Shown here: one piece after another, positions 884 through 11,800 of the stretch
How positions within the stretch are numbered: position 1 is the first letter of the stretch
Layout: every line of letters starts with the position of its first letter
Source: Arthrobacter woluwensis
GTDB lineage: Bacteria; Actinomycetota; Actinomycetes; Actinomycetales; Micrococcaceae
Length of the DNA stretch: 64,000 nt
Direction of reading: 5' to 3'
Assembly (NCBI RefSeq): GCF_900105345.1
Contig: NZ_FNSN01000003.1
Coordinates: 2,914,001 to 2,978,000, forward strand
Program-made: the position numbers and the translations under genes
Notes under the pieces: model-generated
Seen by the model: the letters and a program-made list of their open reading frames with translations, nothing else
What the model was told of the DNA's origin: nothing
Database searches by the model: none

Positions 884-1579
884 TCACCGGGACGCAGCCT
901 CCGCGATGAGGCCGGTGAGCCGCTCCGGGACGGAGAACTGGGGCCAGTGACCCGAACCGATGGTGACGACGTCGAGTGATTTCACGGCCGCGGCCTCGTC
1001 CGCGAACGCACCCCACTGGGCCAGCGCCGCGCGGAACTGCTCCTCGTCCATGCCGCCCGAGAGGACGGTCACCGGCACGTCGTACCGTCGCTCGTCCGTC
1101 AGGGAGATGGGCCCGGTGGGCACCTGCGCCGGAACACTGAAGGTGGCGTTCGCGGCACGTTCCCGCACCTCCGGGGTGAGGTCGTACACCTCTTCCTCGT
1201 CGAAGAAGTCCCAGCCCGGGAACGGGATCACCCCGTCCACCACGTCGAACTCCGAGATCATGGCGCCAGGCGGCGGCACGGCGGTGTCGACGAGGATCAC
1301 GCGCGACACCTTGTCCGGACGCGCATCCGCGGCGCCCCACACGACGTTGCCTCCGCCGCTGTGCCCGACGAGGACCACGGGCCCGTCCAGCGCGTCGATC
1401 TGCGTGACGGTCGCCGCGACCCAGTCGTCGATGGTGAGGGAGGACGACTCCGCAGCAGGCGCGCCGACACCGGGCAGAGTGAGGGGATGCGGACGGTGCC
1501 CGGCGGCGATGAGCCCCGGACTCACCTCATCCCAGGAGGACGCGTCGAGCCAGAGACCGGGTACGAGGAGGAGATCCAT
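884..1579 (-). CDS. Alpha/beta hydrolase (231 aa)
   Basis: Small single-domain alpha/beta hydrolase without signal peptide, cytoplasmic. The nucleophile elbow GHSGGG places Ser74, the N-terminal VPGLWLDASSW loop forms the oxyanion side, and His211 in GSGHWPQFS is the likely catalytic histidine. Length fits salicylate-esterase/EstC-like family members; the substrate is unknown. The start is set by a leaderless promoter (TAGGCT, six bases, ATG). Its promoter and first 31 codons occur again 1349 bp away (2836-2972) with one conservative change (Ser20 to Thr), because a foreign cassette lies immediately upstream. The gene itself is intact. Confidence 0.85.
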   Translation of the reverse strand: MDLLLVPGLWLDASSWDEVSPGLIAAGHRPHPLTLPGVGAPAAESSSLTIDDWVAATVTQIDALDGPVVLVGHSGGGNVVWGAADARPDKVSRVILVDTAVPPPGAMISEFDVVDGVIPFPGWDFFDEEEVYDLTPEVRERAANATFSVPAQVPTGPISLTDERRYDVPVTVLSGGMDEEQFRAALAQWGAFADEAAAVKSLDVVTIGSGHWPQFSVPERLTGLIAEAASR

Positions 1580-1623
1580 GGGGTCAGCCTACGCTCGCCC
1601 TCAGACGATTTTCGAGGGGTCTC
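1487..1623. repeat. 137-bp direct repeat, copy 1
   Basis: Identical to 2836-2972 except at 1521 (C versus G) and 1603 (A versus C), so 135 of 137 match. It covers the first 31 hydrolase codons plus 44 bp upstream including the promoter. Identity stops abruptly at both ends. This copy belongs to the intact hydrolase gene. Confidence 0.95.
1586..1591 (-). promoter_or_regulatory. -10 element of a leaderless hydrolase promoter
   Basis: Read on the minus strand, TAGGCT is followed by exactly six bases and then the ATG at 1579, the usual actinobacterial leaderless arrangement. The -35 position (about 1609-1614) is still inside the duplicated 137-bp segment, so the promoter was duplicated whole (second copy at 2935-2940). 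Confidence 0.6.
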
Positions 1624-1653
1624 GTGGCCGGTCGCCGGTGCCCGGATTCCAAA

Positions 1654-1696
1654 GCGGACCTCACCCCCGCAGAGCATCTGCGGGGGTGAGGTCCGC
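1654..1696. terminator. 20-bp perfect hairpin at the end of insert 1
   Basis: Two perfectly complementary 20-base arms (1654-1673 and 1677-1696) enclose the 3-base loop GCA. On the minus strand it follows the PLDc_N-like gene and is trailed by TTTGG, so it probably ends cassette transcription before the hydrolase promoter. The T-run is weak; it may work on both strands. Confidence 0.6.
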
Positions 1697-1761
1697 GCGT
1701 TCCCGGAGGTACCAGGCGATTCACTCTCAGCACCGCCCGGTACCCTCGAAATTGAGTACCA

Positions 1762-2004
1762 CTATGTTGAGCGCCGTTTTCTTACAGCCGCCGTGCGTAC
1801 CCGAAGTACCACATAGAGCACCGCGCCAAGAAGCGGTATCACTAAGATCAGCGCCGCCCAGAGCAGTCGAGATCCCAAGGTCAAGTGCCGATCAGCAAGT
1901 GCTAGCACCAAAGTCGTCAGTATGAACGCAGCAACGAGGACCACGGGGATCGAAGCGATTCCCATTTCCCAATAGTTCGGATTGAGCTCAGATGGTTGGT
2001 TCAT
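1762..2004 (-). CDS. Small PLDc_N-like membrane protein (80 aa)
   Basis: Two hydrophobic segments: about residues 15-36 (IASIPVVLVAAFILTTLVLA) and 45-68 (LLWAALILVIPLLGAVLYVV), the latter followed by a basic tail RVRTAAVRKRRST. The second segment with W-x3-I-x3-P-x2-G-x2-LY matches the PLDc_N (phospholipase D nuclease N-terminal) membrane motif, with no nuclease domain attached. It lies six bases after the secreted-protein gene and is surely cotranscribed with it. A small membrane protein paired with a secreted one could be an immunity or anchoring factor, but this is inference. Confidence 0.75.
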   Translation of the reverse strand: MNQPSELNPNYWEMGIASIPVVLVAAFILTTLVLALADRHLTLGSRLLWAALILVIPLLGAVLYVVLRVRTAAVRKRRST

Positions 2005-2010
2005 GACGGT

Positions 2011-2766
2011 TTATGAGCTAGTCGCCCATCCCCCACTTCCGTTGACGTTCAGTTGGACCCAAGTGTCCCAGGAAAAAGGAACCCCAACAGTCTGGGTCAC
2101 CCACATATGGATTCGCTGCATCGCCGGTCCGGCATAATCTGAGGAGGTCTTTTGAGGATCCCAAGTCGGCTGATTACAAGACAATCCCCAACACGTCCCG
2201 GTCTGATTTCCAACCCAGTCGATTTTCCCGCCACCAGCCCATGACTCGAAGTTGGCGTTGAAAGCCAGATAAACATTGCCCCACTGATTGCTTTCACCAC
2301 ACCCCGAGAAAGTTGCTGAATAGCTTGTCCGGTACACCGAACAACCTTGGACCGATGCGTAAGGCGTGACTTCTCCGCTCTTTAGCTCGACCACGGGCTT
2401 CTCGACAGTAGTCACCTTTACCGAACCGTCAGCAAACCTACTGATCTGAACCGTCTCGTCGGATTTGTCTCGAGTTTCCACCGAGACGGGATCTCCACCT
2501 TTGTTAGAGTCCCACGGCTGACCTGACTCCCACGTCCTCAGGAGAGGTGCCCAATTTTGGGCCGGAACCTCATACGTCTTGAAGAAGTCCTTTATGTGTT
2601 GCCGATCGCTATTGGTGATGTGCGGACCAGGCGTCGCCTGCGCTGGCATTGCAAGTCCAGCAAGCAGAAGTAAGCCGGAAAAAATGCTGGCGAGAACTAC
2701 TCTCAGATGCCTCATCGAATTCCGCAATTCAGTAACGAGGAGCCCCCAATGACCCCTCATCGTCAT
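2011..2766 (-). CDS. Secreted four-cysteine protein of unknown function
   Basis: No family is recognised. A Sec signal peptide is clear: basic RHLR, a hydrophobic stretch VVLASIFSGLLLLAGLA, and the cleavage motif AQA at about residues 42-44. The mature part is about 207 residues, with a charged N-terminal half (45-134) and an aromatic, Gly/Ser-rich C-terminal half holding four cysteines (142, 156, 192, 197) that could form two disulfides. ATG 2766 is chosen because a promoter (TTGTCA, 17 bases, TAGGCT) places transcription start at or next to it, implying a leaderless mRNA. Met18 (2715) would give a more usual signal peptide length but has no better ribosome site. Lower GC than the neighbourhood marks it as acquired. 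Confidence 0.7.
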   Translation of the reverse strand: MTMRGHWGLLVTELRNSMRHLRVVLASIFSGLLLLAGLAMPAQATPGPHITNSDRQHIKDFFKTYEVPAQNWAPLLRTWESGQPWDSNKGGDPVSVETRDKSDETVQISRFADGSVKVTTVEKPVVELKSGEVTPYASVQGCSVYRTSYSATFSGCGESNQWGNVYLAFNANFESWAGGGKIDWVGNQTGTCWGLSCNQPTWDPQKTSSDYAGPAMQRIHMWVTQTVGVPFSWDTWVQLNVNGSGGWATSS

Positions 2767-2769
2767 CTG

Positions 2770-2798
2770 AGCCTAAGGCTGTTGACTCAAAGTGACAA
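2770..2798 (-). promoter_or_regulatory. Promoter of the cassette operon
   Basis: On the minus strand TTGTCA (2793-2798) and TAGGCT (2770-2775) are separated by 17 bases. The expected start point falls within a few bases of the ATG at 2766, so the transcript would be leaderless or nearly so. The -10 hexamer is the same as that of the hydrolase promoter. Confidence 0.5.
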
Positions 2799-2928
2799 GA
2801 CTTTTCAGATACTTACTGCCCGGTTCTTGACCTTCATGCGGACGGTGCCCGGCGGCGATGAGCCCCGGAGTCACCTCATCCCAGGAGGACGCGTCGAGCC
2901 AGAGACCGGGTACGAGGAGGAGATCCAT
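2773..2928 (-). pseudogene. Truncated hydrolase 5' copy fused to cassette DNA
   Basis: The second copy of the hydrolase start keeps its promoter and first 31 codons, then runs out of homology at 2836 and continues for 20 codons of cassette sequence to TAG at 2773-2775. The resulting 51-residue product lacks the nucleophile and cannot be an active hydrolase. Its transcript would read into the cassette genes. It may be untranslated relic DNA. Confidence 0.75.
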
Positions 2929-2972
2929 GGGGTCAGCCTACGCTCGCCCTCCGACGATTTTCGAGGGGTCTC
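2836..2972. repeat. 137-bp direct repeat, copy 2
   Basis: Second copy of 1487-1623, next to the DUF2087 gene. It is probably the original upstream junction of the hydrolase gene, since it runs straight into GC-rich chromosomal sequence and the neighbouring gene. Confidence 0.95.
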
Positions 2973-3001: not shown

Positions 3002-3487
3002 ATGTCCGCTCTCAGTTCCGTCCGGGTGCTCCTCAGTCTCCTGCGGTCGCCGAAGTCCGCTCCCCTGGTCTCCCGGCTGGCCGCCGGGGAACTCGTCGAC
3101 GCCGACGAGCGCCTCGCAGGGAATCTCGTGCAGAGCGGCCTGGCCGTGGCCGAGGACGGCGGACTCAGGCTCGCGCCGGACGTCCTGGGGCAGGCCCTCG
3201 CCGCTCTGGACCCGGCCGCGCAGGTCGAGGCCCTCCTCGCCACTCCGAGGATCGCCTTGGCGGGCCGGGCGCCGGGCAGCGTGAACGGTCTTGTCCACGC
3301 AGTGGTCACCCGCTGCGTCCGGGACGGCGAGGTGCTCTCCGAAGCCCAGGTCAACGAACGCCTGTCCGTCCTGGTCGAGGACGTCGCGTTCTTCCGCCGC
3401 CACGCCGTGGACCTGGACATCCTCCGCCGGAAGTCCGACGGGACCGCCTACTGGCTCAGCCCGCCGTCGTCGTCCTGGATGGCGTAG
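3002..3487 (+). CDS. DUF2087 domain protein (161 aa), probable winged-helix regulator
   Basis: The C-terminal half (about residues 110-155) shows the DUF2087 pattern: LSEAQVNERLSVLVEDVAFF, RRHAVDLDILRR, then SDGTAYWL. The N-terminal half (SVRVLLSLLRSPKSAPLVSRLAAGEL) looks like a winged-helix repeat of the kind seen in ArsR-like relatives. DUF2087 proteins are usually small transcription regulators; the target is unknown. The start is fixed by TAGAGT (2989-2994) seven bases before ATG, a leaderless pattern. It is divergent from the hydrolase, and the 137-bp repeat copy 2 abuts its promoter. Confidence 0.75.
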   Translation: MSALSSVRVLLSLLRSPKSAPLVSRLAAGELVDADERLAGNLVQSGLAVAEDGGLRLAPDVLGQALAALDPAAQVEALLATPRIALAGRAPGSVNGLVHAVVTRCVRDGEVLSEAQVNERLSVLVEDVAFFRRHAVDLDILRRKSDGTAYWLSPPSSSWMA

Positions 3488-3511: not shown

Positions 3512-4933
3512 CTAGCCGTCGTAGTGGTGCACGTGCAGGCGGCGCGCCGCCTCCGCGATGGAACCGGTCAGCGACGGGAAGACCGTGAAGGTGCTCGCGA
3601 CGTCGTCCACGTGCAGCTTCTTCGCCACGGCCAGGCCGATCGGGTAGATGAGCTCCGAGGCGTTCGGACCCACCACGACGCCGCCGATCACCGTGCCCGA
3701 GCCCTTGCGGGAGATGATCTTGACGAAGCCGTCCTTGGAGTTCCGCATCTTGGCGCGCGGGTTCGACTTGAGCGGCAGCATGACGACGTCGCCCTGGTAG
3801 CGGCCCGTGGAGAGGTCCTTCTCCGAGACGCCCACCGAGGCGATCTCCGGGGAGGTGAAGATGTTGGACGCCACCTCGTTGAGCTTGAGGGGGCGGACGC
3901 CATCGCCCATGATGTGGGCCACCGCGATGCGGCCCTGCATGGCGGCCACGGACGCCAGCGCGAACACCCCGGTGCAGTCGCCGGCCGCGTAGACATTGTG
4001 GGCCGTCGTGCGGGAGACGCCGTCGACCTTGATGTGGCCCGAGTCGGTCAGCGCCACTCCGGCGTTCTCCAGACCGATGCCCTCGGTGTTCGGGATGGAG
4101 CCCACACACATGAGGCAGTGGGTGCCCGTGATGGTGCTGCCGTCGCCGAGGGTGACGAGCACGCCGTCCTCGGTGCGCTCCACCTTCTCCGCACGCGAGC
4201 GGGACAGGACGCGGACGCCACGGCGCTCGAAGACCTCTTCCAGCACGTCGGCGGCGTCGCTGTCCTCACCCGGGAGCACCTGGTCGCGGCTGGAGATCAG
4301 GGTGACCTTGGACCCCAGACCGTTGTACGCGGAGGCGAACTCGGCGCCGGTCACGCCGGAACCGACCACGATCAGTTCCTCGGGCAGCGTGGTCAGGTTG
4401 TAGAGCTGGGTCCAGTTCAGGATCCGCTCGCCGTCCGGCTTGGCGCTCGGCAGCTCGCGGGGGTGGGCGCCGACGGCCAGGATGATGGCGTCGGCGTCGA
4501 CCGTGCGCACCGAGCCCGACTTGGTGGTGACCTTGATGGTGCGGTCGTCCTGCAGCACGCCGTCACCGATCAGCACCTTCACGCCGGCCTCCTCGAGGCT
4601 GCGGCGGATGTCGTCCGACTGCTCCTGGGCCAGCTCCATCACACGGCGGTCGATGTGCTCCAGATCGGCCACCATGGTCGGCGCGCCGGAATCCACCTCG
4701 AAGCGGACCCCCAGGGAGTGCGCCTCCGAGACGCGCGCCATGAGGTCGGCGGTGGCAATCAGGGTCTTGGAGGGCACGACGTCGGTCAGCACCGCGGCGC
4801 CTCCCAGGCCGTTGCGCTCGATGACGGTGACCTTCGCACCCAGGGATGCGGCGACCGCGGCGGCCTCGTAACCACCGGGACCTCCTCCGAGGACGGCGAT
4901 ACGGGGCGCGGCGAAATCAGGATGCGTGCTCAC
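3512..4933 (-). CDS. lpdA: NAD(P)H-quinone dehydrogenase LpdA-like flavoprotein (473 aa)
   Basis: Class I pyridine nucleotide-disulfide oxidoreductase fold. The FAD-binding GGGPGGYEAA is near residue 16, the NAD(P)-binding VVGSGVTGAEFAS near 190, the second FAD motif VYAAGDCTG near 315, and the dimerisation domain follows. The redox CxxxxC is absent: the site reads GGAAVLTDVVPSK. This is characteristic of M. tuberculosis LpdA (Rv3303c), which reduces quinones rather than lipoamide. GTG at 4933 is used as start because the Rossmann strand begins about ten residues later; longer frames upstream have no domain content. It is divergent from the purine nucleoside phosphorylase gene, as in mycobacteria. 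Confidence 0.88.
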   Translation of the reverse strand: MSTHPDFAAPRIAVLGGGPGGYEAAAVAASLGAKVTVIERNGLGGAAVLTDVVPSKTLIATADLMARVSEAHSLGVRFEVDSGAPTMVADLEHIDRRVMELAQEQSDDIRRSLEEAGVKVLIGDGVLQDDRTIKVTTKSGSVRTVDADAIILAVGAHPRELPSAKPDGERILNWTQLYNLTTLPEELIVVGSGVTGAEFASAYNGLGSKVTLISSRDQVLPGEDSDAADVLEEVFERRGVRVLSRSRAEKVERTEDGVLVTLGDGSTITGTHCLMCVGSIPNTEGIGLENAGVALTDSGHIKVDGVSRTTAHNVYAAGDCTGVFALASVAAMQGRIAVAHIMGDGVRPLKLNEVASNIFTSPEIASVGVSEKDLSTGRYQGDVVMLPLKSNPRAKMRNSKDGFVKIISRKGSGTVIGGVVVGPNASELIYPIGLAVAKKLHVDDVASTFTVFPSLTGSIAEAARRLHVHHYDG

Positions 4934-5074
4934 AAAGGACAATTCTGTCCCATGCACTGCCCCACTGCCAGCCGAGGACCCGTCACGAAGCGGCCACCGG
5001 GCCGAAAGTGACGCATCCCACGGCGACGGCGATGCCCGCACAGCCCGTGCTGGGCAAGACCACGGCCCTGCGAG

Positions 5075-5080
5075 TACGGT
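5075..5080 (+). promoter_or_regulatory. -10 element of a leaderless promoter for the PNP gene
   Basis: TACGGT is followed by exactly six bases (TTTCCC) and the GTG start at 5087. No Shine-Dalgarno is present, so the mRNA is probably leaderless. Confidence 0.55.
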
Positions 5081-5086
5081 TTTCCC

Positions 5087-5905
5087 GTGACTACCTTGGA
5101 CTTGAACACGATGGATCCCTTCGAGGCCGCGAAGCTCGCCGCTGAGCACATCGCCCGCGAAACCGGGGTCGAACAGCACGACGTCGCCCTGGTGCTGGGC
5201 TCCGGATGGGGCGGCGCCGCCGACCTCATCGGCGAGACGACCCACACGCTGGACGCCGCGACCGTGCCCGGTTTCCACGCCCCGGCGGTGGTCGGCCACA
5301 CCGGCACCATCCGCTCGGTCCTCACCTCCGACGGCAAGCGCGCCCTGGTCCTCGGCGCCCGCACGCACTTCTACGAGCGCAAGGGCGTCCGCGCCGTCGC
5401 GCACGGGGTCCGCACCGCGGCGGCCGCCGGCTGCAAGACCCTCGTCCTGACCAACGGCTGCGGCGGTCTGAACGAGAACTGGAAGCCCGGCACCCCCGTG
5501 CTGATCAGCGATCACATCAACCTCACGGCGGCCTCCCCGCTCGAAGGCGCCACCTTCGTGGACCTCACGGACCTGTACTCCTCCCGCATCCGCGGCCTGG
5601 CCCGCGAAGTGGATCCCACCCTGGAGGAGGGCGTCTACGCGCAGTTCACCGGCCCGCACTACGAGACTCCGGCCGAAGTCCAGATGGCCAAGATCATCGG
5701 CGCGAGCCTCGTCGGCATGTCCACCGCCCTGGAGGCCATTGCGGGCCGTCAGGCCGGCATGGAGGTCTTCGGCATCTCCCTCGTGACGAACCTCGCCGCA
5801 GGCATCAGCCCCGAACCGCTCAGCCACGCCGAGGTCCTGGAGGCCGGACAGGCCGCCGGCCCCCGCATCTCCGCCCTGCTCGCCCAGATCATCGGCAAGC
5901 TCTGA
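5087..5905 (+). CDS. Purine-nucleoside phosphorylase (272 aa)
   Basis: Trimeric-type PNP: it splits inosine/guanosine and their deoxy forms with phosphate into base and (deoxy)ribose 1-phosphate in the cytoplasm. Phosphate-binding GSGWGGAA lies near residue 39, GHTGT near 72, the NGCGGLN motif near 126, GPHYETPAEV near 190, and MSTALEAIAGRQAGMEVFGISLVTNLAAG follows. Length is normal. GTG is the start because of the leaderless promoter. The phosphosugar mutase begins three bases after its stop, so the two are cotranscribed. In M. tuberculosis the equivalent gene is called deoD or punA. Confidence 0.92.
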   Translation: MTTLDLNTMDPFEAAKLAAEHIARETGVEQHDVALVLGSGWGGAADLIGETTHTLDAATVPGFHAPAVVGHTGTIRSVLTSDGKRALVLGARTHFYERKGVRAVAHGVRTAAAAGCKTLVLTNGCGGLNENWKPGTPVLISDHINLTAASPLEGATFVDLTDLYSSRIRGLAREVDPTLEEGVYAQFTGPHYETPAEVQMAKIIGASLVGMSTALEAIAGRQAGMEVFGISLVTNLAAGISPEPLSHAEVLEAGQAAGPRISALLAQIIGKL

Positions 5906-5908
5906 GCC

Positions 5909-7678
5909 ATGGCCCCGCACAGCACGGCGCACGACGACGCCGCCTCCGCTCCCCTGCCCACCGGCCTCGCGCAGCGGGCCCGGGAGTGGGCGGCCACCGA
6001 CCCTGACAGCGCCACCGCGGCGCAGCTGCTCGCCCTCGTGGACGACGCGGAGCGCGGCTCCGCCACGGCGACGGCCGAGCTGGAGGACGCGTTCTCCGGG
6101 ACCCTGCAGTTCGGCACCGCCGGTCTGCGCGCCGCGCTGGGCCCGGGACCGATGCGGATGAACCGCGTGGTGGTGCGCCGTGCCGCAGCCGGTTTCGCGG
6201 CCTTCCTCAACGAGGCCCTGGGCGCCGACGGCGAGGCCCGTGCGCCGCGCGTCGTGGTCGGCTTCGACGCCCGCCACAACTCGGACGTCTTCGCACGGGA
6301 CTCCGCCGCCGTGTTCACGGCCGCGGGCCTGGAGGTCTTCCTCATGCCCTCCGCCCTGCCGACCCCTCTGCTCGCCTACGCGGTGCGGGCCCTCGACGCC
6401 GACGGCGGTGTCATGGTCACGGCCAGCCACAATCCGCCGCAGGACAACGGTTACAAGGTGTACCTCGGCGGGCGAGCGGTTCCGGAAGGCGCCCGTGGCT
6501 CGCAGATCGTGGAGCCGTACGACGCGAGGATCGCGGCGGCGATCGCCGCCGTAGGCCCGTCCGAGTCGATCGCCCTGGCGGAGTCCGGCTGGGAGGTCCT
6601 CCCGGCGTCCATCGAGGACGACTACCGCGCTGCAGTGGTCGCGCTGGCACTGCCCGACCGCTTCCCGGAGCGGGACCTGGACATCGTTCTCACTCCGATG
6701 CACGGCGTCGGTGGACGGACCACCGAGGCGGTGCTGCGCGCGGCCGGATTCGCGTCGGTGACGCAGGTCGCCGAGCAGGCGCAGCCCGACCCGGACTTCC
6801 CCACCGTGAGCTTCCCCAATCCGGAGGAGCCCGGTGCGCTCGATCTGGCCCTGGCCCTCGCCGCGGAGCGCGGCGCGGATGTGGTCCTGGCCAACGATCC
6901 CGACGCCGACCGCGCCGCCGTGGCTGCCTTCGACCCGGACGCCGACGGCGGCCGTGGCGCGTGGCGGATGCTGCGCGGCGACGAGGTGGGCGCTCTGCTG
7001 GGGGCCCACATGGCCGACCGCCTCGCGGGCCGGACCGAGGGCGTCTTCGCGAATTCGATCGTGTCCTCCCGGCTGCTGTCCCGCATCGCGGCGGCCGCCG
7101 GCTACGAGCACCGTGAGACTCTCACCGGGTTCAAGTGGATCTCCCGTGTCCCCGGACTCGTCTACGGCTACGAGGAGGCCCTCGGGTACTGCGTGGCGCC
7201 GGAGCTGGCCCGCGACAAGGACGGGATCTCCGCCGCCCTGCTGATCGCGGAGCTCGCGGCCCAGGCCAAGGCGCAGGGCTCCTCCCTCTTCGGTCTTCTC
7301 GACACGCTGGCGCTGGAGCACGGACTGCACGCGAGCGATCAGCTGAGCGTCCGGGTGGCCGATCTCAGCCTGCTGGACACCATGATGGCGGCCCTCCGCG
7401 CCACTCCCCCGGCGGCACTGGCGGAGTCCGCCGTCGTCGTGGCGCAGGACCTGTCGCAGGGCACGGAGGAGCTGCCCGGCACCAACGGGCTCAAGTACCT
7501 CAGCGAGGACGGCACGCAGGTGATCGTGCGGCCCAGCGGCACGGAACCGAAACTCAAGTGCTACCTCGAGGTGGTCGTGCCGGTGGACGGCGCGGACGCG
7601 CTGCCCGCGGCCAAGCGGGAGGCCCGACGCCGGCTGGACGCCGTGCTGGACGGCATGAGGTCCGCGCTGGGCGTCTGA
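5909..7678 (+). CDS. Phosphomannomutase/phosphoglucomutase-family enzyme (589 aa), possible phosphopentomutase
   Basis: Alpha-D-phosphohexomutase fold in four domains. The active-site serine is Ser173 in [13 protein letters not shown], the Mg2+ loop is NDPDADRAA near residue 330, the sugar loop GYEEALGY lies near 421, and the phosphate loop [10 protein letters not shown] near 537. It matches the long branch that includes M. tuberculosis PmmB and mammalian PGM2. Sitting between a nucleoside phosphorylase and DeoC, with no DeoB in view, it is well placed to convert (deoxy)ribose 1-phosphate to the 5-phosphate. That substrate is inferred from context, and hexose phosphates remain possible. Confidence 0.85.
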
Positions 7679-7773
7679 GCGCCCGGCATGAGATTCTGGG
7701 GGATCACCGCACACACCCGGCGCGCCACCACCCCTCGGCCCGCGCCACGACATCAGGCATGCAAAGGAAGACC

Positions 7774-8448
7774 ATGAGCACGAACATCGCCTCTTACATC
7801 GACCACACCCTCCTCAAGCCGGACGCGAGCCGCGAGGACGTGCAGCGCCTCTGCGCCGAGGCCGTGGAATACGGTTTCAAGTCCGTGTGCGTGAACCCGG
7901 TCTGGGTGAAGACCGCCGTCCAGGCGCTCAAGGGCAGCCCGGTGCTGTGCTGCGCCGTCGTGGGCTTCCCGCTGGGCGCCACGCCCACCGATGTGAAGGT
8001 CTTCGAGGCACGCGGCGCGGTGGAGGACGGCGCCGCGGAGATCGACATGGTCATCAACATCGCTTCGGCCCAGGCGGACGACAAGGACGCGCTCGTCGAG
8101 GACATCGCCGCCGTGGCCGCCGCGGTGCACGACGGCGAGGCGATCCTGAAGGTCATCATCGAGACCGCGCTGCTCACGGACGAGCAGAAGGTCCTCGCCT
8201 GCCAGGCGTCCGTCGAGGCGGGCGCGGACTTCGTGAAGACCTCCACCGGCTTCAACGGCGGCGGGGCGACCGTGGAGGACGTGAAGCTCATGCGCGCCAC
8301 CGTGGGTCCCGATCTGGGCGTCAAGGCGTCCGGCGGAGTGCGGAGCCTGGAGGATGCACAGGCTATGATTGCTGCTGGTGCCACCCGCATCGGCGCGAGC
8401 TCCGGCATCGCCATCGTCAAGGGCGAACAGGGTCAGAGCGACTACTGA
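7774..8448 (+). CDS. deoC: Deoxyribose-phosphate aldolase (224 aa)
   Basis: Class I aldolase cleaving 2-deoxyribose 5-phosphate to glyceraldehyde 3-phosphate and acetaldehyde. The Schiff-base lysine is Lys155 in FVKTSTGF, with the supporting Asp91 (EIDMVI) and Lys184 (GVKASGGVR). Substrate loops IDHTLLKP and VGFPLG are intact. The start is at 7774, with AAGGAAG five bases upstream; an in-frame ATG five codons earlier lacks a ribosome site. It completes a deoxynucleoside degradation route with the two preceding genes, although the 95-bp gap suggests a separate promoter. Confidence 0.95.
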
Positions 8449-8455
8449 GAACCCG

Positions 8456-8475
8456 GGGTCCCCTCACGGGGACCC
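8456..8475 (+). terminator. Hairpin after deoC
   Basis: GGGTCCCC and GGGGACCC pair perfectly around TCAC, seven bases after the deoC stop. There is no T-run, so termination may be partial. Confidence 0.45.
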
Positions 8476-8557
8476 GAGAGCGTGCCCCTGTCCGGGCCGC
8501 CCTGCGGAAGACTGACGACGTCCCAGCGGACGTCACGAGAAAGAAAGTTGGGAGACC

Positions 8558-8794
8558 ATGTCCCGTCCGATCGGCAAAGAGAACAACACCGTCCAGTCCC
8601 TGGTGCTGTTCATCATCTGCTTCGCGCTGTTCGCCGGGGCTGTCTACTCGCTGTCCTTCCTGAGCCTGGAGAACACCTGGCCCGCGGCCGTGACCCTGGT
8701 CCTGTTCGCACTGGCCTTCGCCATCCCGCAGCACGTCCTCGGCCGGTCCGACACGCTCGCCGAGCTCGAGCGCGCCAAGCAGGACGCCAAGTAA
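8558..8794 (+). CDS. Small two-helix membrane protein (78 aa), unknown function
   Basis: Not a recognised family. A short polar N-terminus (SRPIGKENNTVQ) is followed by two hydrophobic segments at about residues 13-34 (SLVLFIICFALFAGAVYSL) and 42-60 (WPAAVTLVLFALAFAIP), and a charged cytoplasmic tail TLAELERAKQDAK. Shine-Dalgarno GGGAG sits six bases before the ATG. It is followed by a strong hairpin and has its own promoter space after deoC, so it is likely a separate transcription unit. Confidence 0.75.
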   Translation: MSRPIGKENNTVQSLVLFIICFALFAGAVYSLSFLSLENTWPAAVTLVLFALAFAIPQHVLGRSDTLAELERAKQDAK

Positions 8795-8810
8795 CGCTTG
8801 TCAGCAGCAC

Positions 8811-8842
8811 GAAGGCCCCGGAGGTTCTCCTCCGGAGCCTTC
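8811..8842. terminator. Bidirectional terminator between the small membrane protein gene and mfd
   Basis: Fourteen-base arms (GAAGGCCCCGGAGG and its complement, one mismatch) flank a TTCT loop. The hairpin sits between the convergent ends of the 8558-8794 gene and mfd. Confidence 0.7.
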
Positions 8843-8872
8843 GTCGTTCAAGGGCGTTGTCGTCCGGGCCGC

Positions 8873-11800
8873 TCAGTCCTCGAAGATCGCCGCGAGCACG
8901 TTGCGGGCCCACTCGAGGACCTGTGCGTCGGCGAGATCGCGGCCCCCGACCCGCGCCGTCTTCGGCTTCGGGATCAGCACCGCGTTGAGCGCAGGCTTGA
9001 TCTGGGAGCCCGGGTACATGCGGCTCAGGCGCATGGTCTTGGACTCCGGCAGCGCCGCCGGGGCGAACTTGATGAAGTTCCCCTGGACCGCGACGTCGGT
9101 CAGCCCGACCGCGCGGGCGGCCACGCGGAAGCGCGCCACGTCCAGGAGGTTGACCACGGGGGCGGGCGGCTCGCCGTAGCGGTCCACCAGTTCGTCGCGC
9201 ACCTCGTCGATCGCCGCGTCCGTGTGGGCCGCGGCGAGCTTGCGGTAGGCCTCGAGGCGCAGGCGCTCCCCCGGCACGTAGTCGTGCGGCAGGTGGGCGT
9301 TGATCGGCAGCTCGATCTTCATCTCGGCCGCCGCTTCCTCCTTCTCCCCGCGGTACTCCGCGACCGCTTCGCCGACGAGGCGGATGTAGAGGTCGAAGCC
9401 CACCCCCTGGATGTGGCCCGACTGCTCACCGCCCAGGAGGTTGCCGGCGCCGCGGATCTCGAGGTCCTTCATGGCGAGCTGCATGCCGGCGCCGAGTTCG
9501 TTGTGCGCGGCGACGGCCTTGAGACGTTCCAGGGCCACCTCGCCCAGCGGTTTCTCCGACGGATACAGGAAGTACGCGTACGCCCGCTCCCGGCCACGGC
9601 CCACACGGCCACGGAGCTGGTGCAGCTGTGAGAGGCCGTAGTTGTTGGCGCCGTCCACGATCAGGGTGTTGGCGTTGGAGATGTCCAGGCCGGTCTCGAT
9701 GATGGTGGTGCAGACCAGCACGTCGAACCGCTTCTCCCAGAAGTCCACGATGATCTGTTCCAGGCGCGCCTCGGTCATCTGACCATGCGCCACCTCGACC
9801 CGTGCCTCCGGGACCAGCTCGCGGATGGACGCTGCCACCCGGTCGATCGAGGACACCCGGTTGTGCACGAAGAACACCTGGCCCTCGCGCATGAGCTCAC
9901 GGCGGACCGCGGCGGACACCTGCTTGTCCGTGTACGGGCCGACGTAGGTGAGCACGGGGTGGCGCTCCTCCGGCGGCGTGGCCAGGGTGGAGGTCTCCCG
10001 GATGCCGGTGAGGGACATCTCGAGGGTGCGCGGGATCGGGGTGGCGGACATCGCCAGCACGTCCACGTTGGTGCGCATCTTCTTGAGCGCTTCCTTGTGC
10101 TCCACGCCGAACCGCTGTTCCTCGTCGATGATGACGAGTCCCAGATCCTTGAACTCGATCTCCTTGGACAGGAGGCGGTGCGTGCCGATCACGAGATCGA
10201 CGCTGCCGTCCTTGACGCCGGCGAGCGTCTCCTTGGACTCCTTGGCGATCTGGAACCGGGACAGGGCCCGGACCCGGACCGGGAACCCGGAGAACCGCTC
10301 GCTGAAGGTCTCGTGGTGCTGCTGGGCGAGGAGGGTGGTGGGCACCAGAACGGCCACCTGCTTGCCGTCCTGGATGGCCTTGAACGCGGCGCGGACCGCG
10401 ATCTCGGTCTTGCCGTAGCCGACGTCGCCGGAGACGAGGCGGTCCATGGGGATCTCCTTCTCCATGTCCGCCTTGACCTCGTTGATGGTCGTCAGCTGAT
10501 CCGGCGTCTCGACATACGGGAACGCCTGTTCCAGTTCGCGCTGCCAGGGGGTGTCCTGCCCGAACGCGTGCCCCTTGGACGCCATCCGGGCCGAGTACAG
10601 CCGGATGAGCTCGCCGGCGATCTCCTTGACCGCCCGGCGCGCCTTGGACTTGGTGGAGGCCCAGTCGGAGCCGCCCATCTTGCTGAGCGCCGGGGTGTCA
10701 CCGCCGACGTAACGGGTGACCTGGTCCAGCTGATCGGTGGGGACGAAGAGCCGGTCCCCGGGGGCGCCGCGCTTGGACGGGGCGTACTCCAGGACCAGGT
10801 ATTCGCGCACCCCGTCCGAGCCGGCGGTCTTCCGCTGCACCAGCTCCACGAACCGGCCGATGCCGTGCTGTTCGTGCACGACGAAGTCGCCGGCGTGCAG
10901 GGACAGGGGGTCGACGGCGTTGCGGCGCCGGGACGGCATCTTCCGCATGTCCTTGGTGCCGCCACGGGCGCTCGAACGGCCGAGCAGATCGGCCTCGGTC
11001 AGGACGCCGAACTTCAGCCCGTCCAGGACGAAGCCGTGGCCGGCCTCCGCCGTCGTGATCTCGATGATGCCGGGAGCCGGCGCGTCCGCCAGGCGATCCA
11101 CCCGGGCACAGGGCACGTCGGCATCGTGGAACAGCTCGGCGAGGCGCTGCGCCGGGCCCGGGCCGTCCGTGACCACGACGAGCCGCCAGGAGTCCTTGAT
11201 CCGGGAGGAGATGAACTCCAGCATCTCCCCCACATCGCCGCGGTATCCGCGCGGTTCCCTGGCCCGCAGCGCCAGCACGTCGACGTCGTGCCCCAGTTCC
11301 TCGTCCACACCCAGGGTGGAGACGTCCCACCAGGAGACGCCCGCCGACTGCGCGTCGGTCCGGGTGTCCGCGAGCGTGCGGAAGCTGGCCTCGTGGAGGA
11401 GGGCCTCCGGGTCCAGGCCGAGGTCCAGCGGCGCGGCGCCGCCGTCCGAGGCGGTGGACCACGCGGCCGCGAGGAATTCCTCGTTGGTCGCGATGAGGTC
11501 GTGGGCGCGGAGCCGGACCTTCTCCGGTTCGATCATGAACGCGATCGAGCCCTCGGGCAGGGACGAGACGAACGGCACCATGGAGTCGACCAGCACGGGC
11601 GCCAGGGACTCCATGCCTTCCACGGTGATCCCACCCGCGATCTTCTCCAGCATGTCCGCGGCGCCGGGCATGCTCTTCTGCAGCTTCGCGGCGCGGGACA
11701 TGACGGACGGCGTGATGAGCAGTTCGCGGCACGGCGGAGCCCACAGGACCTCGGGGTGGACGACGCCGTCACCCACGGAGAGGGAGCGCTGGTCGGCGAC

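Follow-up and report, generated by a model that had tools for sequence, protein, structure and literature searches.

A two-gene, toxin-immunity-like cassette between long copies of its target gene's start in Arthrobacter woluwensis

The window analysed here is a stretch of 64,000 nucleotides from Arthrobacter woluwensis (contig NZ_FNSN01000003.1, positions 2,914,001 to 2,978,000), and all coordinates at the locus are counted from its first letter. Read along the minus strand, the DUF2087 gene, which lies on the opposite strand, is followed by repeat B, a toxin-like gene, a membrane protein gene, and repeat A with an intact hydrolase. The features are the following.

884..1579, minus strand: target alpha/beta hydrolase, intact, 231 aa (Abhydrolase_6, E=9.8e-21)
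1487..1623, minus strand: repeat copy A, contiguous with the intact hydrolase (promoter region and first 31 codons)
1654..1696, minus strand: 20-bp perfect hairpin at the cassette end, probable terminator (RNA fold)
1762..2004, minus strand: 80 aa protein with two TM helices, putatively for immunity (PLDc_N match below threshold)
2011..2766, minus strand: 251 aa protein, putatively a secreted toxin (signal peptide; family alignment A1)
2773..2928, minus strand: truncated hydrolase ORF in copy B, 51 codons, of which 31 are from the hydrolase and 20 are foreign
2836..2972, minus strand: copy B of the repeat, with the second hydrolase start and its promoter region (repeat comparison)
3002..3487, plus strand: DUF2087 gene, the other cassette border (PF09860, E=4.3e-10)

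An initial annotation of this DNA had described the hydrolase promoter and first 31 codons as occurring twice around about 1.2 kb of AT-richer sequence, and this description holds. The copies at 1487-1623 and 2836-2972 are identical at 135 of 137 positions, with mismatches at 1521 and 1603, each consists of the hydrolase promoter region and the first 31 codons, and the 1212 bp between them have a GC content of 55% compared to 70% in the flanks. The difference is also seen in the GC3 of the cassette genes, which is 0.58 as against 0.88-0.94 for the neighbouring genes. Flanking repeats of this kind were absent from the 52 other positions scanned in the window. That the hydrolase is intact and has kept its own promoter was likewise borne out (884-1579, minus strand), and its amino acid identity is 99% in both G002 and G003. 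The annotation had also reported no integrase or transposase, and we found none between the repeats in the ORFs and Pfam matches of the cassette. The same ORFs and Pfam searches gave no replication or mobilisation gene in the 1212 bp insert, which contains the two cassette genes only.

Repeat B is located upstream of the toxin gene and has the same direction, and its duplicated promoter may drive the cassette; neither a sigma-70-like promoter nor an Rfam match was found within the cassette. The truncated hydrolase ORF of this copy stops 6 bp short of the start at 2766, while the position of the signal peptide suggests that the toxin gene starts at M18 (about 2715). At the other end, RNA folding over 1640-1720, the region of the hairpin, gave -59.6 kcal/mol with a z of -8.4.

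The 251 aa protein has a signal-peptide-like N-terminus, and in the family alignment A1 a DGS motif is conserved and two cysteines are invariant. Searches of Pfam, NCBIfam, PADLOC and PHROG returned no match for it, and this secreted cargo protein of about 250 aa belongs to an undescribed family. Within the bacterial family, 19 of 395 genomes have a relative of it (22 of 295 by profile search), and an order-level search gave 23 of 396. Relatives are also present on Clavibacter and Gryllotalpicola plasmids, with only about 30% identity, and none were found in scans of viral contigs and phage records. Nearly every inspected relative is followed by a small protein (about 35-120 aa) that is predicted to have one or two membrane helices, and several of these partner proteins have a PLDc_N-like match. 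For the 80 aa protein this match falls below the cut-off of 23.3 (E=1.3e-4, 22.3 bits). Given the secreted protein with its small membrane partner, the patchy distribution, the low GC and the orphan partner in G003, the two-gene operon is most likely a toxin/bacteriocin-immunity pair, with both functions deduced from sequence features.

Membership of the 251 aa protein in PF09683 (lactococcin-972) was considered and rejected, as there is no Pfam match and its own genome is PF09683-negative. Predicting the structure of this protein from its sequence alone gave a poor model (pLDDT 46), which was not taken into a fold search. A weak profile match to Lmo2686, a secreted Listeria protein of solved structure (4k15), covers A1 positions 157-241 with E=0.0028 and was not relied on.

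The locus was compared across four genomes of the genus. G002, an independent complete genome, has this arrangement too, with a repeat that is a few bases longer (about 144 bp), and it is therefore not an assembly artefact. Between G000 and G002 the two cassette genes have dS values of 0.029 and 0.015, as against 0.10 for the hydrolase, 0.185 for DUF2087 and 0.105 for lpdA in the flanks. Over all sites the divergence is 15/1209 (1.2%) in the cassette and 150/4485 (3.3%) in the flanks (P=4e-5), a contrast that involves only 15 substitutions and regions of unequal base composition. The tract of low divergence has its limits at the repeats, with repeats A and B themselves diverged as the flanks are, and its simplest reading would be an exchange of the cassette after the species split, bounded by the repeats. 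Additionally, a GAG and a T are common to copies A and B of the window and different in copy A of G002 and in G003, and gene conversion seems to have acted between the two repeat copies. In G003 the hydrolase is present once, the immunity gene is intact, and of the toxin a decayed 3' end is left. The dS of the G003 immunity gene is 1.2 (dN/dS 0.17) compared to 0.11-0.23 in the flanks. This is another cassette allele, in which the toxin was lost and the immunity gene kept.

In Arthrobacter horti (G001) both the cassette and DUF2087 are missing here and lpdA adjoins the hydrolase. The DUF2087 gene (3002-3487), which is thus missing at the locus in this species, has a dS of 0.185-0.23 and evolves faster than its neighbours.

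The initial annotation had also proposed a search for the same cargo elsewhere with different flanking duplications, and for the cargo family this was positive among Micrococcales loci. We searched the two 4 kb flanks of the cassette gene for direct repeats shared between them (E<1e-15) and found such repeats, at different sites, at 12 of 45 (27%) homologous Micrococcales cassette loci. Counting loci irrespective of relatedness throughout, they turned up in 6 of 500 random windows drawn from the genomes of these loci and from related ones (P=3e-10), and in none of 28 AT-rich windows (P=0.002). The six positive random windows come down to three loci, with repeats that are only 67-75% alike. We had considered that the pattern might be special to this cassette family and dropped this, as the frequency of flanking repeats at lactococcin-972 loci is comparable (3 of 16, with a single tandem array accounting for two). 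Bacteriocin-type units in general may have this pattern. One such lactococcin-972 locus, L255 (G159, 5238-9003), lies behind enolase and has a transporter-like ATP-binding protein and 62-bp flanking direct repeats (95%).

The 12 loci comprise eight with protein-gene fragments, two tRNA islands (L180 and L227), L042, and L035, which is left unassigned. At L042 the repeats are an upstream region common to two tandem secreted genes. In the two islands (L227 in G113, at tRNA-Val, and L180 in G691, at tRNA-Arg) the cassette family is found in about 2.8 kb together with an integrase-family gene, which at L180 appears truncated. At the remaining eight, the duplicated DNA comes from eight different protein genes, and an intact copy is always kept:

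Window: hydrolase start, 5' end with upstream region
L047: DUF4192 start, 5' end with upstream region
L033: ADP-ribosylglycohydrolase 3' end
L170: gene junction, alpha/beta-hydrolase end and GNAT start
L167: FtsX 3' end
L171: resolvase 3' end
L177: LuxR-type regulator 3' end
L040: 3' end of a 192 aa gene

Across the loci the repeats are 58-555 bp long and 74-99% alike, and no common motif at the insert ends and no common core was evident. The inserts at the window, L033, L167, L170 and L171 are 1.2-1.5 kb, which is barely longer than the two cassette genes, and that of L040 also contains an IS3-type transposase-like ORF. The two copies at L170 are nearer to each other than to relatives, and placement of the second copy at L033 as foreign or native has a bootstrap of 43. 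At L047 (G128, 4097-8827) a 3.6 kb insert lies between 555-bp copies of the DUF4192 start that are 98.7% identical. It includes a second secreted-peptide ORF (about 7030-7280) and then a short membrane-protein-like ORF (about 7411-7602), and is possibly a small bacteriocin island.

The initial annotation had proposed looking for empty sites in related genomes, and this succeeded in part. They are present in relatives at some of the homologous loci (L170, L033 and L167), but none of the four genomes of the genus has the hydrolase joined to DUF2087 at the window locus. For L170, a hydrolase/aminopeptidase-like gene directly adjoins the GNAT gene in about ten species of the G691 genus, and for L033 the site is without a cassette in G084. 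At the L167 site of G613, G767 and G768 the tRNA-Arg side is almost directly joined to the FtsX gene. A search of the genus of L047 gave no clear empty site. The tRNA-Arg/FtsX site, which holds the cassette in G396, contains about 1 kb of different DNA in L277 (G771, 535-1500), and this relative is 98.5% identical on the FtsX side; the site is likely an insertion hot spot. In L264 (G149, near 1500) the similarity to the ADP-ribosylglycohydrolase that is the L033 target ends before the 3' end and is followed by unrelated DNA.

The explanation that we consider best, with about even confidence, is an integrase-free entry with duplication of 137-145 bp of the target, followed by homologous exchange through the repeats. 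The two-gene unit, toxin-like and immunity-like, would have been acquired horizontally and have entered beside the hydrolase, and the duplication of 137-145 bp would have come from an event without an integrase whose initial capture step we infer. With the target duplicated at insertion, the hydrolase is left intact with its own promoter, and it may be because the duplication spares the target that such insertions survive. The repeats could then act as homology arms for RecA-type recombination, which would carry the cassette from one sister species to another at this locus, presumably by a circular or double-crossover route, and partly homogenise the copies. A third lineage would have lost the toxin and retained an immunity gene. 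As long target duplication would have it, the locus has long direct repeats of target DNA and an insert free of recombinases and insertion sequences.

The data are compatible with several first steps. The initial annotation favoured Campbell-type integration, by one crossover, of a circle that bore the cassette and had captured the hydrolase start. Its product has exactly the form seen here, near-identity over 137 bp is plausible for RecA, and the bounding of the low-divergence G000-G002 tract by the repeats upholds the part of the proposal that concerns recombination through the duplicated hydrolase start. The plasmid replication gene that a circle would suggest is absent from the insert, however, and the plasmid and phage collections contain no close relative. 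The proposal also leaves unexplained how the circle first acquired a piece of the target and why insertions recur at many unrelated genes, and we regard it as unlikely. This recurrence, in which the ends have no sequence in common, fits long target duplication no less well than it fits one particular circle, while Campbell integration may be the current route between strains at the window locus. The other serious candidate for the first step is homology-facilitated illegitimate recombination, in which hydrolase homology anchors one end of a linear donor and the other end is joined illegitimately. This was proposed for Vibrio effector-immunity modules (PMC5361080) and there are reports of it from transformable species and from conjugation in E. 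coli (PMC3240628). Against it, the second copy at L033 could be placed neither as foreign nor as native, and we give this course a rather low probability.

Very unlikely, in our judgement, is the remnant of an integrase island, with an att-site duplication at the hydrolase start and the integrase lost or supplied in trans. The homologous cassettes inside the tRNA-Val and tRNA-Arg islands speak for it. Every other case has a different target, however, the repeats vary in length and likeness and are without a common core or end motif, and the inserts of 1.2-1.5 kb have no integrase. Partial duplications do occur in bacteria, and chance could have placed unrelated AT-rich DNA in an old partial tandem duplication. 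This is highly improbable given the 12 of 45 loci against three poorly matching loci among the 500 controls, and given a cassette that diverged less than its flanks.

How small gene units without a recombinase enter new chromosomal sites is an old open question, and discussion of it has so far centred on the restriction-modification genes of Helicobacter. The present case offers a family of secreted proteins, hitherto undescribed, that has inserted independently many times, in several cases as only 1.2-1.5 kb, with long duplications and visible empty sites, and the mechanism of entry can therefore be tested. The family is in addition a candidate for a group of antibacterial proteins. The repeated occurrence of relatives between duplicated pieces of different genes suggests a recurring, integrase-free entry route that spares its targets. 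More tentatively, and less likely than not, small actinobacterial toxin-immunity cassettes could be a class of mobile units that do without a recombinase, in which a long duplication spares the target and the self-made repeats allow both movement from strain to strain and clean loss.

Several known systems can be compared to this cassette. The tRNA-borne integrase islands of G113 and G691 hold the same cassette family between direct repeats, whereas the cassette described here has neither integrase nor tRNA. The lactococcin-972 loci (PF09683) are similar as small secreted bacteriocin units found in the same families, some with flanking repeats, but no sequence relation was detected and their partner genes are different (an ATP-binding transport-type protein in L255). 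For restriction-modification genes, two reports describe insertion with long target duplication of variable length (PMC1643837, PMC3031569; after Nobusato et al. 2000). The likeness is a small foreign gene unit within long direct duplications of variable length, and the differences are that the cargo here is a secreted toxin-immunity-like pair, that the hosts are high-GC Micrococcales and that no strain-level empty site was found at this locus. In type VI secretion (T6SS) modules old immunity genes are retained (PMC5361080). The present cassette has no secretion cluster, and its duplicated DNA comes from an unrelated hydrolase and not from the toxin gene. What it has in common with the effector-immunity and orphan immunity genes of Vibrio cholerae (PMC5361080) is modular exchange and, as G003 illustrates, an immunity gene that outlasts its toxin.
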